From a virus, in IMG/VR virus record IMGVR_UViG_3300042332_000715, positions 1 through 64,000 of that record: 64,000 nucleotides of DNA; one strand, 5' to 3'. Made by a program: the position numbers and the translations under genes. A model generated the notes under the pieces. That model saw only the letters and a list, made by a program, of their open reading frames with translations. It was not told the DNA's origin and did no database searches. Shown here piece after piece: positions 20,421-62,468 of the stretch (positions within the stretch are counted from its first letter, which is position 1; every line of letters starts with the position of its first letter).

Positions 20421-21818
20421 ATGCCGTATCAACCTGCAACAGCCGGAGCCTACAAATTATTCCATCAAGGGACTCTCGCCCTGTCCCGAATGGAAGCAGT
20501 AGGCATGCCGATTAACCTGCCTAAAATGCAGGCTAATCGAGAGGAAGTCGCACTAAAGATACGTGAAGGCGAAGCTAAGCTGCGCAAACACGAAGTCTAT
20601 AAGACGCAGCAGAAGATCTTTGGTAAGGAAACATCTCTCGGTTCCCGAGATCAATTAGCTCATGTGCTGTTCCAGCACATGAAACTAAAGGGTGCGAAAC
20701 GCACCAAGAATGGTAAGTACAAGTTGGACGACGATACTTTACGCTTGCTCGACATGGAGTATTGCGACTCTTTTTTATCACTACAGAAGCTCGTTAAACT
20801 TAAAGGGACGTACCTAGATGCTTTATGCAATCTAGCGGTGGACGGAAGAATACACGGAAGCCTTAACCTACATAAAGTAAAGTCATTCAGAGGATCGGCA
20901 GAAGAACCCAATCTAAATAATTTACCTAGCAGAAACAAAATTGTCACGGCGTATGTAAAAGGGGCCGTTTGTCCTTCTCCTGGTTATTTGATTGTAGAGT
21001 CTGATTACGGGGCACTTGAAGTTAGAGTCGCTGCGACATACCACAAAGACTCCACAATGTTGTCGTATCTGGAAACAGGGTATGATATGCACAGAGAGAT
21101 TGCTAAGCAATGCTTTCTGTATGACGACGAGTTTATAGAAGCCAATACTTCGCTTGCGAAGGATCTTAGAACAGAAGCTAAGGGAGCAGCTACCTTTGCA
21201 TTTTGTTATGGCTCTACGCACCCAGAAGTCGCACAGCGACTATGGAAAATAGCCAACAAGAAAAACATGCTTGCACATTTAGCATCAAAAGGCATTAAAC
21301 GCCTCGGTATGGAATACGATGCTGTAGAAAGTAGGTGGATAATAAATCATGGCCCAGATGCTTTAGTTACCCATATTAAAGCAGTCGAGTACGACTTCTG
21401 GAATGTACGATTCCCGTTTTATGGTCAATGGAGATTGGATTGGTACAGAGCATACATGCAAAAAGGTTTCTGTATGAACCATACAGGCTTTATGTGGTAT
21501 GGCGTAGAACGTAAGACGTTTATAAATAATTTTCCGATCCAAAGTACGGCTTTTCATATACTATTACAAGCTATCATACTAATACAACAAGAACTTATAA
21601 AGAGAAAGATGAAGTCTAGGCTGTTCTTAGAGATACACGACTCCATCTTGGCAGAAGTCTACGAGCCTGAACTAGAGGAGTACATAGCATTGACTACAGA
21701 CATAATGACGAATAAAATGCGTCAGATGTACGACTGGCTTTGCTTGGATCTGGTCGTGGAGCACGAATACTCACCGCTTTCTTGGGCGGATAAGAAGCCA
21801 TACGAAGGGAAATACTAG
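20421..21818 (+). CDS. Family-A DNA polymerase, polymerase domain only (465 aa)
   Basis: Motif A IVESDYGALEVRVAA has Asp 195. Motif B is RTEAKGAATFAFCYG (residues 250-264), with Lys-to-Tyr spacing one residue longer than usual. Then come NNFPIQSTAFHIL (370-381) and motif C LEIHDSILAEV (His-Asp 406-407). The N-terminus (ALSRMEAVGMPINLPKM) is where the thumb of Pol I enzymes begins, so the 5' nuclease and 3'-5' exonuclease domains are missing. An exonuclease of the right type is encoded at 31109. The first third of the gene is rich in short hairpins (for example 20690-20705); the stretch 20830-21230 has few. Confidence 0.92.
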   Translation: MPYQPATAGAYKLFHQGTLALSRMEAVGMPINLPKMQANREEVALKIREGEAKLRKHEVYKTQQKIFGKETSLGSRDQLAHVLFQHMKLKGAKRTKNGKYKLDDDTLRLLDMEYCDSFLSLQKLVKLKGTYLDALCNLAVDGRIHGSLNLHKVKSFRGSAEEPNLNNLPSRNKIVTAYVKGAVCPSPGYLIVESDYGALEVRVAATYHKDSTMLSYLETGYDMHREIAKQCFLYDDEFIEANTSLAKDLRTEAKGAATFAFCYGSTHPEVAQRLWKIANKKNMLAHLASKGIKRLGMEYDAVESRWIINHGPDALVTHIKAVEYDFWNVRFPFYGQWRLDWYRAYMQKGFCMNHTGFMWYGVERKTFINNFPIQSTAFHILLQAIILIQQELIKRKMKSRLFLEIHDSILAEVYEPELEEYIALTTDIMTNKMRQMYDWLCLDLVVEHEYSPLSWADKKPYEGKY

Positions 21819-31108: not shown

Positions 31109-32329
31109 ATGTTCACATTCTTTGTCCAGCAAGATAAAAAGCCGTTGGCTTTAGTACCTGACTGCCGCTCCTGCGGACTGGCTCTCAAATGCCAGAACCC
31201 AGTTCTAAAAGCCGTCAAACGACCGTCTAAGACGGTCATCGTCGTAAATGGACCTAACGAAGATCTTCCCGATGGGGTAAAACACCAGAAGCGGCTCGCA
31301 GCCGCTTTAGAGAAGGCTGGGCTGTCGATACACGACTACAGTATCGTACCAGCAATCGCTTGCCCAGGCGATAAGCTGAACCCGAAAGTCCAGTATTGGA
31401 AGTATTGCCAACCCCTAATGATCCAACAAATCAAGGCTTTAGAGCCTGAAAAGATCATAGTGTACGGCAAGCACGCTATCGCTAGCGTGATCGACTGGCT
31501 CTACCGCGAACACGCGGAACTGCCAGATCGTTGGATCGGGCGTAAGATTCCCTGCCGGGAACTGAACGCATGGATCTTACCGATAGGGAATAAGGGTATG
31601 GTGGTCAATCCTGCGGTAGCTCAGACTTGGCTCTATCGCTTTATTAGAGAAGCTGATAGTATCCAAGGTCGTCCATATGACCAAGTGCCGGACTACAATA
31701 AGACAATCAAGATCCTACACGACGCTGAAAGCGTCAAACAGGCATTAGGGGCGGCTAGCCGCTCACCGTTGTCTGCGTTTGACTACGAAACGAATTGCCT
31801 ACGGCCCGAGAAGCCAAAAGCGAAGATCTTCACAGCTAGCGTAGCTTGGCTCGAAGGAACCGAATCGAAGTGCGTAGCCTTCCCGATGAAAGCGGAGTTC
31901 ATCCAGTATTGGATTGAATACTTACTTTCTGATTCGGCGAAAATCGCCGCCAACATGAAGTTCGAGCATCGCTGGTCTAAGAAGCATTTCGGTGTAGACG
32001 TGAAACGTCTTATGTGGGATACGAATCTAGTCGGGCATATGTACGACCCGCAGCCCGGCGTAACTAGCCTGAAATTTCAGGCTTTCCGTGATTTGGGCGT
32101 GCCGTTTTACGCAGGTGAGGTAGAAAAATACTTCACTACGCAAGACGAAGCGGGCTATAATTCTATTCACTTGGCTAACACGCGGTCGCTGCTGGAATAC
32201 AACGCGATTGACTCATTGGCTGAGCTGGACCTGGGGATCTTGCAAATGTATCAATCCCCGATTGGTAGCGAGTTTTGGAGTTCGGCATTGCCGAACAAAC
32301 GGTTTTATACGAAAGGTATGTGGTTATGA
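31109..32329 (+). CDS. UDG-like domain fused to 3'-5' proofreading exonuclease (406 aa)
   Basis: Residues about 1-190 resemble a family-4 uracil-DNA glycosylase fold: Cys pair DCRSCGLALKC, NGPNEDLPDGVKHQKRLAAAL in place of the GExPG...G-x-L-L motif, IVPAIACPGDK, then YCQPLMIQQIKALEPEKIIVYG. The catalytic GE-x-P-G sequence is altered, so glycosylase activity is doubtful. Residues about 215-400 are a DnaQ/Pol I-type exonuclease: AFDYETNCL (Exo I), ANMKFEHRW (Exo II), YNAIDSLAELDL (Exo III). Order and domain content match the front half of SPO1-type polymerases, whose polymerase half is encoded at 20421. Confidence 0.75.
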   Translation: MFTFFVQQDKKPLALVPDCRSCGLALKCQNPVLKAVKRPSKTVIVVNGPNEDLPDGVKHQKRLAAALEKAGLSIHDYSIVPAIACPGDKLNPKVQYWKYCQPLMIQQIKALEPEKIIVYGKHAIASVIDWLYREHAELPDRWIGRKIPCRELNAWILPIGNKGMVVNPAVAQTWLYRFIREADSIQGRPYDQVPDYNKTIKILHDAESVKQALGAASRSPLSAFDYETNCLRPEKPKAKIFTASVAWLEGTESKCVAFPMKAEFIQYWIEYLLSDSAKIAANMKFEHRWSKKHFGVDVKRLMWDTNLVGHMYDPQPGVTSLKFQAFRDLGVPFYAGEVEKYFTTQDEAGYNSIHLANTRSLLEYNAIDSLAELDLGILQMYQSPIGSEFWSSALPNKRFYTKGMWL

Positions 32330-58665: not shown

Positions 58666-60182
58666 TATCGTTTGGGCCTTTGTTGGGTATTAGTTGGGGT
58701 CTTGTTAGGGTCTTTCGATTGTCCTGGCTTCGGCATTTTGGGGATCGAGCTTGGGATATTGCCATTCGCCGAGCCTGATAGAACTGATTTCAGTTCAGCC
58801 AGGACTGGCGAGAATTCAGTCTTATCTGCGGCCATGATTGCTTGTACCATTTGGGCCGAGAAGCCCATGACCTTGCCAAGATATTCAGGCAATGGAATCA
58901 AGGCTTCGGCACCCGAAGTCGCGTATCTTGCTAAGCCTTCGGACATCTTGGCAGCTACTTCGGCTTGCTCAATGATTGAGAGCGGAGCCATAGGCTCCCA
59001 TCTCACCATATAAGGTAATGGCTGATCTTGCTGCGGCTTTGGTTCTGGGAGAACCCCTGCCTGGATAAGACGATCAAGCGTTGGCCTAATGATGTATGGC
59101 GTTACGTGACGCTCTTTTCTAAGAGCAATACGTTCTCGCCAAAGAATGGTGTCCTGCGGGCTGTCTAGCTGGCCTTGCTGCGATCCTATGAATGTCTGCA
59201 TTGGGATGCCTTTATTCATGGCAATCAGCATCAATAGGTTCTTAGTGTGATTGGTAGGGTCGGCTACCTGTGGCAATAGCGATTTAACGCTTACGCCGAC
59301 CATAGTGATGTACCGCTGCAATCCTTCGGCATACAGCTTTACGTCCTCACGTAACGCTTCGCGTTCTTCTGCGGAGAAATCGCCGTGTTTGGGATCAACT
59401 TCGAAGCTAAGCCCTGGGAAGGCACCCTTCCAGAACATCTCACCAGAGCCTCCTACGACCTTGCGTAGATCGAGGAGACGGTTGTACACGGATTCCATCC
59501 GTGGGGCACCGAAGATCTCGGATTCAATGCGATTGTCCGCTATGTGGACGACCCGCGACCAGTGGACTCGATGATTCTGAGCAGTTGTTTCGGTAGAGCT
59601 AGGATGCTCTTGGAACGTCAATGTGTAGTATCGTGGCTGTCCGTAACGCGGATTCGTCCGGTCGTCCTCAAATTCCATGATGGAAACAGAGCCTTCACCA
59701 AATACCCTGTAGTAGAGTATTTGTGCATCGCCACGCGATTCCAATGGTCCGGTTTCATCGAAGCCCGGTGCGGGCGTTTCAAACTCTCCGCCATCGTCGA
59801 AGCCGAGAAATAGAATACCGAATCGTCCGATACCGCTTACGCGGTCAGCACGATGGAGGTAAGAATACAGATTGGTCTTGGCGTTTAGGCGGTCAACCGC
59901 CTTTTCGAAGTCGGTTTCGCGTTCTTCCTCGGTTTCATAGACGCTTGGATAGTCTTTCCAGCATTCGTCCGGCTGAATATCCACGACCCGATTGGCAATT
60001 TCATGGCGACGATACATCGTCACGTAATCAGCAGGTGTGATAGTTTGGGGATAACCGCACATCTGATCGAGATTTCGATCTAGATTTTCGCCGTCCATAA
60101 TAGGCACACCGGCTAACGCTCGGTCAAATAAGTTTGTGACCAGTTCTAGACTGCGAATGTGCTGAGTTGGATCGGGTTTCAC
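58665..60182 (-). CDS. Portal protein (505 aa)
   Basis: GTG start at 60182. The N-terminal crown/stem region YRRHEIANRVVDIQPDECWKDYPSVYE and the helical stem LMLIAMNKGIPMQTFIGSQQGQLDSPQDT (about 330-360) are as in DUF1073-type portals. The protein ends in a Pro/Lys/Gln-rich tail. The length is usual for portals, and it lies two genes upstream of the capsid. Preceded by 858 bp of noncoding sequence, so it needs its own promoter or read-through. Confidence 0.85.
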   Translation of the reverse strand: MKPDPTQHIRSLELVTNLFDRALAGVPIMDGENLDRNLDQMCGYPQTITPADYVTMYRRHEIANRVVDIQPDECWKDYPSVYETEEERETDFEKAVDRLNAKTNLYSYLHRADRVSGIGRFGILFLGFDDGGEFETPAPGFDETGPLESRGDAQILYYRVFGEGSVSIMEFEDDRTNPRYGQPRYYTLTFQEHPSSTETTAQNHRVHWSRVVHIADNRIESEIFGAPRMESVYNRLLDLRKVVGGSGEMFWKGAFPGLSFEVDPKHGDFSAEEREALREDVKLYAEGLQRYITMVGVSVKSLLPQVADPTNHTKNLLMLIAMNKGIPMQTFIGSQQGQLDSPQDTILWRERIALRKERHVTPYIIRPTLDRLIQAGVLPEPKPQQDQPLPYMVRWEPMAPLSIIEQAEVAAKMSEGLARYATSGAEALIPLPEYLGKVMGFSAQMVQAIMAADKTEFSPVLAELKSVLSGSANGNIPSSIPKMPKPGQSKDPNKTPTNTQQRPKR

Positions 60183-60267
60183 GGTACTTACCTGAGAAAG
60201 AATTAGAGACGCTAATTCTGTATTGTACCATGATTGAAGATATTACCTCGATTTTCGAGGCTAAACG

Positions 60268-60307
60268 AAAAACCCCGTCTAGGACGTAACTTATTTCCTA
60301 GACGGGG
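60268..60307 (-). terminator. Leftward rho-independent terminator 1
   Basis: Minus strand: CCCCGTCTAGGA (60307-60296) pairs over 12 bp with TCCTAGACGGGG (60284-60273), followed by TTTTT. It would stop leftward transcripts before the portal gene. Confidence 0.85.
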
Positions 60308-60365
60308 TAATGCTGAAGCCGCGAAGCGACTTCGTTACAGATCCCACACATGGTAGGATTATACG

Positions 60366-60407
60366 AAAAACCCCCTCGGACGAAAGGATTAAAACTTCCG
60401 AGGGGGT
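60366..60407 (-). terminator. Leftward rho-independent terminator 2
   Basis: Minus strand: CCCCCTCGGA (60406-60397) pairs with TCCGAGGGGG (60380-60371), then TTTTTCG. It stands about 60 bp before terminator 1. Confidence 0.85.
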
Positions 60408-60414
60408 CTATGTA

Positions 60415-60450
60415 GCTTGCCGGTAAAGGAGGAGAGCAAACCCGGCAAGC
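60415..60450. other. Hairpin presenting an AAAGGAGGAG loop
   Basis: GCTTGCCGG (60415-60423) pairs with CCGGCAAGC (60442-60450). The 18-nt loop holds AAAGGAGGA on the plus strand, a near-perfect anti-16S target, and AAGGAGGGG follows at about 60451. No start codon with an open frame lies downstream, so it is not an ordinary ribosome-binding site. Confidence 0.5.
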
Positions 60451-60528
60451 AAGGAGGGGTTCAACCTGACAGTTGTACTTCCATTGTACCCCGCTAGCGG
60501 GGCGGTGTCAAGAGATGTAATAAAATTC

Positions 60529-60556
60529 TTGCCAAAGTCAAATCATTTGGTAGAAT
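60529..60556 (+). promoter_or_regulatory. Rightward promoter of structured RNA
   Basis: TTGCCA (60529-60534), 16-bp spacer, TAGAAT (60551-60556), opposite in direction to all flanking late genes. The TAGAAT box is the same as in HNH cassettes 2 and 3. Start predicted near 60563. Confidence 0.6.
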
Positions 60557-60562
60557 GGTACG

Positions 60563-61030
60563 ATCCACGGCCTAGCCGTGGCGGGTGGACTCGGGGCTGG
60601 ACGCTCCCCATCCGGGCGCGTGTTAGCGTGAAAGCCAAGCCTACTAGGTGGCAGATCGGGTAGTCAAGCATTACGACTTGGGAAGCTGAAAGCTTCGGGG
60701 AATGACGTGAGATACGGCATCTTCCTACAGCGTGGTACTAGGAAGCGACAGGATTACGCTAACACATAGCCCGCATCTATATGCGGGTTGGGGAGTGTAG
60801 TAGGGGCACCTACTACGACGGGCAAAGAGAACTGAAGATCCTCTGTACATTACCTAGCGAAAAACTAAACCCAAGCTCTGTGTACCCTCACAACTTGGTC
60901 CCGTGGCATTCACCTATAAGGTGTAACTAGCTAGAGTAAGAACCCCTGGATAGGTAACACATCCATAGCCAAACAAGCCGTTACACGGCTAAAACAAACA
61001 CCGCAAGGCATAATGCCGGGCATAGAGGGT
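60563..61030 (+). ncRNA. Large structured noncoding RNA candidate (about 470 nt)
   Basis: Perfect stems in series: 60565-60581 (7 bp), a long-range 10-bp stem GTGTTAGCGT (60620-60629) with ACGCTAACAC (60756-60765), and inside it GAAGC-TGAAA-GCTTC (60682-60696) and CTTCCTA/TAGGAAG (60721-60745). Further stems are CCCGCAT-CTAT-ATGCGGG (60770-60787), GTAGTAGG-GGCA-CCTACTAC (60797-60816), CACC/GGTG (60911-60923) and AGCCG/CGGCT (60976-60990). Unpaired stretches on this strand are A-rich (GCGAAAAACTAAACCC), as expected of an RNA, and a promoter precedes it. I see no RNase P, tmRNA or intron core. GOLLD- or ROOL-like large phage RNAs are candidates. The 3' end is unclear; no terminator precedes the terminase gene end. 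Confidence 0.6.
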
Positions 61031-61040
61031 TCCCACGCAC

Positions 61041-62468
61041 TTACTTCAAAACGCCTAATTTAACCGTTTGCTTGGTCAAAACATTGAATGCTAGCGAAGT
61101 GGCATCCACTTGGTCGTCATGCGACCCATCTGGGAAATACATGAATTCAGACTCGTAATCGTCCCAAACTTCACCGCCAATGGCGGTGTGGATGTTTCCC
61201 ATGTTGATCTGAGTCGAGAGCGAATCCGCTCTAACTAGCTTACTGCCGCTGGAAGCGGCCTTTTCGACGTGGACGACGAAGCCATTTAGCCGCTTCACGG
61301 CTGCTTTGGCAGCGTCGATACCTGCGGAGCCTAGTTCTTGCTCTAGAGCGATCTTAACGTGCCTGCCATCGGCGTGAGCCGTTGCTACGATGATCTTCTC
61401 GCGTTCGTCCGTGTCCCACTGACCTCTGCGAATGTCGAGAATCCAGATCGTCCCATCGTCCATCATTCCCAGCTTGGCGCCGACCGTAAAGTCGCCGCTA
61501 GCCGCGAGAGCGGCTTTATCCCAAGCACGCACGATCTTTTTGAACGCTCGATCCGCTGGCGGAGCCAAGTGCTTAACGACTCTATCTATCTTGATAGCAC
61601 CACCACCGGGCGGAATGGGCTGTTGCAGGATTTGTCCTGCGTAGCCCCAATCACCTAACTGGACCCGCAAATCGGCAAGAGCCTTCCGGCTCAATCGATC
61701 AGGGTCGAACAAACCATCGACGTAGTGTTGACGTAGTTCAGGTGGATTGATAAAGTCGGATTCGACCCCCGGCAAGCAGATCAGCTTGACATTTGGATAT
61801 TCTTTCAGCATGACTGCCGTAGGGTCGCCAACGGAGATCCGTTGCATGACAAGGTAGGTGAAGGACACGTCCTTGTCCACTTTCCGGCTCGGCAGCGTTT
61901 CTTTCATAAACCTAGCCGCCTCTAGCTGCGCTGCTGCCGATCTACCGCCCTGCGGGTCCAGAGGATCGTCGATGCCCAGAACGTGGGCGTGACGCCCCAT
62001 GATACCGCCTTTGATGCCGTAGGCGTATCTATCGCCTCCGAGCGTATTACTCCAAAGGCTCATCTTGTTTAAGTCGCCGCGTAGCTCGATTTCGGGGAAT
62101 AGCTTCTGGTAGAGCGGAGATTGAACCACACGTCTGCTCTTGACGGTGAGTTCGAATGCTAGATCTTCCGTAAAGCTGGCACCGAGGAACCGCAGCCCTG
62201 GAAACCTAGTCCACGCCCAAGGCGTGTAAAGGACCGTGAAGATCGATGACTTCGACGTACCGGGACTGATGTTGCAGATTAGATCGTATTCCTTCGGTTC
62301 GCCGCGAAAGACCCTTTCGGATGCGACCTGAAGTTCGTTGCACAGGTACGGGATGTGCCAATTTACCTTTAGTTTCTGGTCGGAGATCACAGGCCAGAAG
62401 GTTTTGACGAAGTGGAAGTAGCTCTCTCTACAAAGGCGGCTTAGCTCGCCGTAGTAGTCAATTTGCAT
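61041..62468 (-). CDS. Terminase large subunit (475 aa)
   Basis: ATPase half: ICNISPGTSKSSIF (Walker A-like, about residues 66-79), LRFLGASFTED, and Walker B HVLGIDDPLDPQG. The nuclease half is RNase H-like: IVRAWDKAALAASGDFTVG (first Asp), WILDIRRGQWDT and a C-terminal GSHDDQVDATSLAFN with two Asp. It packages DNA through the portal. It is the most upstream late gene visible on this strand and is separated from the portal by the noncoding RNA region. No small terminase is obvious next to it. Confidence 0.92.
   Translation of the reverse strand: MQIDYYGELSRLCRESYFHFVKTFWPVISDQKLKVNWHIPYLCNELQVASERVFRGEPKEYDLICNISPGTSKSSIFTVLYTPWAWTRFPGLRFLGASFTEDLAFELTVKSRRVVQSPLYQKLFPEIELRGDLNKMSLWSNTLGGDRYAYGIKGGIMGRHAHVLGIDDPLDPQGGRSAAAQLEAARFMKETLPSRKVDKDVSFTYLVMQRISVGDPTAVMLKEYPNVKLICLPGVESDFINPPELRQHYVDGLFDPDRLSRKALADLRVQLGDWGYAGQILQQPIPPGGGAIKIDRVVKHLAPPADRAFKKIVRAWDKAALAASGDFTVGAKLGMMDDGTIWILDIRRGQWDTDEREKIIVATAHADGRHVKIALEQELGSAGIDAAKAAVKRLNGFVVHVEKAASSGSKLVRADSLSTQINMGNIHTAIGGEVWDDYESEFMYFPDGSHDDQVDATSLAFNVLTKQTVKLGVLK

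Follow-up and report, generated by a model that had tools for sequence, protein, structure and literature searches.

A putative structured non-coding RNA of about 480 nt in the terminase-portal interval of an uncultured lake phage

To our knowledge, few large phage RNAs have been described, and the main ones, ROOL and GOLLD, are without known function. The pRNA of phi29, with a size of about 170 nt, is a phage RNA that adjoins packaging genes and stays with the packaging motor. Models of ROOL, GOLLD and OLE are presumably all contained in Rfam. A study of these three RNAs used profiles from Rfam and described hairpins with highly conserved loops that form intermolecular contacts, as well as a conserved 3' region and a less conserved 5' region in GOLLD (PMC12286853); OLE is mostly a Bacillota RNA (PMC12054373).

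The window analyzed here, a stretch of 64,000 bases, stems from a 67,210-base IMG/VR virus record of an uncultured lake phage. Its positions 60563 to 61040, which are our approximate revised limits for an element of about 480 nt on the plus strand, are very probably transcribed into a folded non-coding RNA of a class outside Rfam, as far as can be judged from sequence. It resembles GOLLD, likewise a large structured phage RNA, in that one of two domains is better conserved than the other, but GOLLD often exceeds 800 nt and it is the 5' half that is conserved here. With ROOL it has in common the hairpins and conserved loops of a large phage RNA, although it is shorter than the studied ROOL (659 nt) and not located near tRNAs; it falls into a similar size class as OLE, likewise a large structured RNA. 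The neighborhood of packaging genes is shared with the phi29 pRNA, compared with which it is far larger and sits in a cargo-type slot. What separates it from all four is the lack of an Rfam match. At the gathering score, no Rfam family was found in the window, and a search of 60180-61060 at E <= 10 gave two matches outside the RNA, CRISPR-DR32 (E 6.1) and anti-hemB (E 2.4), and no others; in the copy of a sister phage (L009, see below), only narK (E 1) and P9 (E 6.3) appeared, far below their gathering scores. Neither sequence thus matched the ROOL, GOLLD or OLE covariance models. An earlier note on this DNA had been unable to assign the element to a known class, which agrees with these searches, but the kinship to GOLLD and ROOL that it considered finds no backing in Rfam, nor in a tRNA island of the kind frequently found near these RNAs, as ARAGORN and Rfam detected no tRNA, tmRNA or tRNA-like match in the 64 kb window.

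The late genes (terminase, portal, capsid and connector genes) are all encoded on the minus strand, with minus-strand ORFs reaching to about 40 kb; genes matching replication functions (helicases, primase, DNA polymerase, clamp and clamp loader) lie on the plus strand at about 13-33 kb. Between the intact terminase and portal genes extends an interval of about 860 bases without a credible gene, of which the RNA element occupies the right part, its 3' limit abutting the terminase stop codon. Two sister copies were traced by terminase search and IMG/VR pattern scans: a full one on a contig that we encountered as L002, L009 and L015 (IMGVR_UViG_3300008107_000977), and a truncated one, L010, on a contig that stops within the 5' domain (IMGVR_UViG_3300008110_001456). 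Such an end in the invariant half would be in line with several alleles being present in the population, but may also be an ordinary assembly break. The features of the locus are as follows.

60182-58665, minus strand: portal gene
60529-60556, plus strand: sigma-70-like promoter TTGCCA-16-TAGAAT with TG before the -10 element, expected start about 60563
60563-60790, plus strand: 5' domain, about 98-100% identical to L009, and to L010 as far as its copy extends
60565-60581, plus strand: 5'-terminal hairpin P0, CCACGGC-CUA-GCCGUGG
60620-60631/60754-60765, plus strand: 12-bp stem closing the multibranch core, pair probabilities 0.81-1.0
60768-60789, plus strand: hairpin AGCCCGCAU-cuau-AUGCGGGUU where the two domains meet
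60790-60946, plus strand: 3' multibranch domain, closed by GGGG (60790-60793) pairing with CCCC (60943-60946) and by the long-range helix listed below
60797-60816, plus strand: hairpin H1, five two-sided compensatory changes, loop GGCA invariant
60826-60844, plus strand: hairpin H2, with 6 bp in L009 and only weakly formed in the window
60850-60857/60931-60939, plus strand: long-range helix UUAC(AC)CUAG/CUAGaGU(GU)AA, pairing kept in L009
60871-60898, plus strand: hairpin CCAAG..GUG..CAC..CUUGG, stems invariant
60911-60923, plus strand: hairpin H3, CACCU/AGGUG changed to CUCGGC/GCCGAG, three two-sided compensatory changes
60947-60965, plus strand: hairpin H4, UGGAU/AUCCA changed to AGCAU/AUGCU, loop AGGUAACAC invariant
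60976-60990, plus strand: hairpin H5, AGCCG/CGGCU changed to GGCGG/CCGCC
61245-61265, plus strand: weak candidate terminator GCCGCT-gga-AGCGGC-CTTTTC inside the terminase gene, present in L009
62468-61041, minus strand: large terminase gene, stop codon 61041-61043

The promoter-like pair described in the earlier note could be located at 60529-60556. The bare pattern is at chance level (2 sites found versus 1.4 expected), yet it is identical in L009 and kept in altered form in L010 (TTGTCA...TACAAT), where bases in both hexamers differ and the site is still promoter-like. No credible ORF was found within the RNA region, in agreement with the same note: the reading frames are interrupted differently in the window and in L009, and the 3' half contains frame-breaking indels.

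The plus-strand fold is modestly more stable than dinucleotide shuffles (z -2.4 or -3.2 in two runs), and the minus strand gives nearly equal values (z -2.0 or -2.3). A long-range stem enclosing a multibranch domain, as proposed before, is indeed present, although with a length of 12 instead of 10 bp. The A-rich joints are real as well, but not diagnostic: unpaired A amounts to 45% in the RNA and to 45% in shuffles, and was therefore discarded as evidence on the strand. At the level of sequence, the comparison with L009 is stronger evidence than folding alone. Identity to L009 is about 95-97% in the flanking genes, about 99% in the 5' half and about 67% in the 3' half of the RNA; in 120-base windows, the flanks mostly reach 91-99% (one window 88%), against 98-100% in the 5' and 67-68% in the 3' domain. 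The 5' domain is thus conserved above the flanking coding DNA. The border between the invariant and the divergent part, which extends from about 60794 to the terminase stop, is sharp and looks like the trace of an exchange of the whole 3' module.

Despite this divergence, pairing in the 3' domain is maintained. Hairpin H1, for example, changes from GUAGUAGG/CCUACUAC to GGUGAGGC/GCCUC-ca-ACC in L009 with pairing kept, and in H1, H3, H4 and H5 together, 12 pairs are changed on both sides and none is broken in an alignment of the only two full-length sequences, whose 3' segments were aligned by hand between invariant anchors; with the weaker H2 counted, the two-sided changes number 14. The two compensatory changes in H4 are independent of the hand alignment, because this hairpin aligns without gaps. 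A paired insertion of 2 bp (AC/GU) lengthens the long-range helix from UUAC/GUAA to UUACAC/GUGUAA, and the last pair of the neighboring CUAGC/GCUAG helix is lost in L009, the sole broken pair counted in the whole structure. The segments of H1, H3, H4 and H5 beat their own shuffles in both phages (p 0.001-0.03), H2 only in L009. Forcing the conserved helices costs 8.1 kcal/mol in the window (free fold -170.4) and 3.1 in L009 (free fold -185.0). Compensatory changes relative to a sister phage, which the earlier note had named as a check on its proposal, are thus present in H1, H3, H4 and H5, and this general mark of large structured phage RNAs is found here between two full sequences. Within the same structure, a motif UAACACAU..UAGCC is present twice on the plus strand, at 60758-60772, where it belongs to the 3' side of the long stem, and at 60953-60970, within hairpin H4 and its flank; the long stem also contains GUGUUA, to which the loop of H4 is complementary. 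This repeat and complementarity could reflect a switch, a contact, or chance.

Further copies were sought in several collections, and statements on their absence refer to the named searches, the metagenome collection lying outside that scope. Exact pattern scans of IMG/VR with six conserved pieces retrieved only L009 and L010 beyond chance (the matches L005-L008 and L011-L014 were read and discarded as chance), one pattern run on GTDB contigs found none, and blastn against GenBank phages and PLSDB plasmids yielded no copy. In a DNA search of 40 records, the 38 related phages without a known copy gave chance-level matches only, and a covariance model of the 5' core recovered from related records only the three copies, other matches being at chance level. 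The same model gave a weak match of 22.8 bits in 1 of 294 genomes of one phylum, taken as chance in view of many broken pairs, and 0 matches in 299 genomes of a second phylum. Terminase relatives in GTDB are mostly from Bacteroidota, plus Planctomycetes and others; since these are at most 44% identical and spread over several phyla, we do not claim a host.

A profile search provided six relatives with 57-70% identical terminases (L016, L017, L020, L021, L022 and L023). Their terminase-portal gaps measure 282-1,219 bases each, that of L017 being the same sequence as in L018 and L019, and contain other, mostly small ORFs, which in L016, L020 and L021 have a ribosome-binding-site-like stretch and lie on the strand opposite the terminase (ORF scan) and in L017, L022 and L023 were identified by eye. 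A -10-like TATA(A/C/G)T, a loosened consensus pattern, is found on the same strand as the RNA in all six. Blastn of the slot as well as whole-record DNA and model searches found the RNA in none of them. The terminase-portal interval therefore resembles a promoter-equipped cargo slot whose contents can be exchanged, the RNA being one of them; this argues against a packaging role and for an accessory, trans-acting RNA. As other ORFs, downstream of a promoter that faces against the late genes, fill the slot of the relatives, the RNA most likely takes the place of cargo genes, is read from the plus strand and acts in trans. The idea, prompted by phi29, of an RNA at work beside the terminase is not supported: the examined phages with related terminases lack the RNA and have other genes in this place, whereas a pRNA would be expected to stay with its motor. 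The slot ORFs include a 62-aa one (MRKNKWG...) in L020 and a 221-aa one without Pfam match in L023. Another phage, L003 (39% terminase identity), was rejected as a carrier, the mere 55 or so bases between its terminase and portal genes leaving no room.

The reading we prefer, with somewhat better than even chances in our estimation, is that of a structured non-coding RNA of about 480 nt that has a promoter of its own, of the sigma-70 type, forms accessory cargo in the interval that separates large terminase and portal, and acts in trans. It is preferred because of the conserved and covarying structure, the strongly differing rates of change in its two domains and the same-orientation slot in relatives. 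The element indeed faces against the late genes, as noted before, its plus-strand promoter opposing the minus-strand terminase and portal genes, and a convergent antisense regulator has to be considered. Such a transcript would enter the 3' end of the terminase gene, perhaps up to 61265, and lower terminase or late expression early, with the structure serving only to stabilize it. The antisense-facing promoter retained in relatives would suit this role, as would the lack of an intrinsic plus-strand terminator within the RNA region and ahead of the terminase gene, the weak terminator-like hairpin at 61245-61265 lying about 200 nt inside the latter. However, this hairpin was not found at its position in L020, L021 and L022, and the surrounding coding motif is altered in L016, L017 and L023; moreover, antisense action needs neither an invariant 5' domain nor covarying internal hairpins. 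We consider this explanation unlikely.

Fold and covariation speak to structure, not to strand, and the complementary hairpins have similar energies on both strands, so that the structured RNA might instead be a long 3' UTR with which the terminase transcript extends to the minus-strand terminators downstream (60405-60365). Against this stands the single change within the 12-bp stem, an A to G substitution in L009 that converts U-A to U.G and preserves pairing on the plus strand only. Together with the conserved promoter right at the 5' hairpin (promoter-like also in L010) and the plus orientation in which relatives use the slot, this favors the plus strand and leaves the UTR with a rather low probability. 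A packaging or origin site acting as DNA would account for the location next to the terminase gene, but recognition of double-stranded DNA does not call for stems rewritten with pairing kept, and in the slot of the six closest relatives, ORFs are present instead of similar DNA; we regard this as highly improbable. Least credible appears a diverged self-splicing intron or ribozyme remnant, which size and multibranch folding might suggest: at E <= 10, neither sequence was matched by a ribozyme or group I/II intron family of Rfam, and no gene is interrupted, terminase and portal being intact on both sides.

For the accessory RNA, our best guess is a role as an early-infection scaffold or decoy. 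It would be transcribed rightward from its own promoter early in infection, being on the same strand as the replication genes, its 5' hairpin might protect the RNA end, and it would act in trans instead of serving in packaging. Functional contacts may be made by the invariant 5' domain together with the invariant loops, GGCA in H1 and AGGUAACAC in H4, with the 3' stems free to drift or be swapped; late leftward terminase transcription would produce antisense of the RNA up to the terminators at 60405-60365 and could shut it off. As conserved loops of ROOL, GOLLD and OLE make intermolecular contacts, contact with a partner or a second copy would first be expected at the two invariant loops, which by analogy would also be candidates for ROOL/GOLLD-like multimer or nanocage contacts. 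Taken further, one might envisage a new large phage RNA class whose invariant loops mediate assembly, either between copies or with a host machine, whose 3' domain is exchangeable and subject to diversifying selection, and which serves as non-coding cargo in a protein-gene slot; to this we assign only a small chance. What makes the locus of interest is that an Rfam-unmatched RNA sits where relatives have small protein genes, and that an invariant half adjoins a fast-changing one. Its function may thus be approachable via the roles of the relatives' proteins and the contacts of the variable half.

Several other observations were made in the window. Next to the element, at 60511-60365 on the minus strand, lies a likely small RNA candidate of about 110 nt with a promoter (TTGACA-17-TACAAT), a strong terminator and a fold z of -5.1; the loop of its stem-loop contains CUCUCCUCCUUU, an anti-Shine-Dalgarno stretch, and the promoter and both stems are also present in L009 and L010. 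A segment of about 98 bases with a second terminator hairpin (60264-60361), flanked by the direct repeat ACGAAAAACCCC, is missing from both. Farther away, two plus-strand ORFs, 20421-21815 and 31109-32326, match successive parts of PHROG 17 (DNA polymerase; 835-1237 and 549-820, respectively). By Pfam, the former is a family A polymerase, with an HNH endonuclease gene directly downstream, and the latter has only a weak uracil-DNA-glycosylase match.
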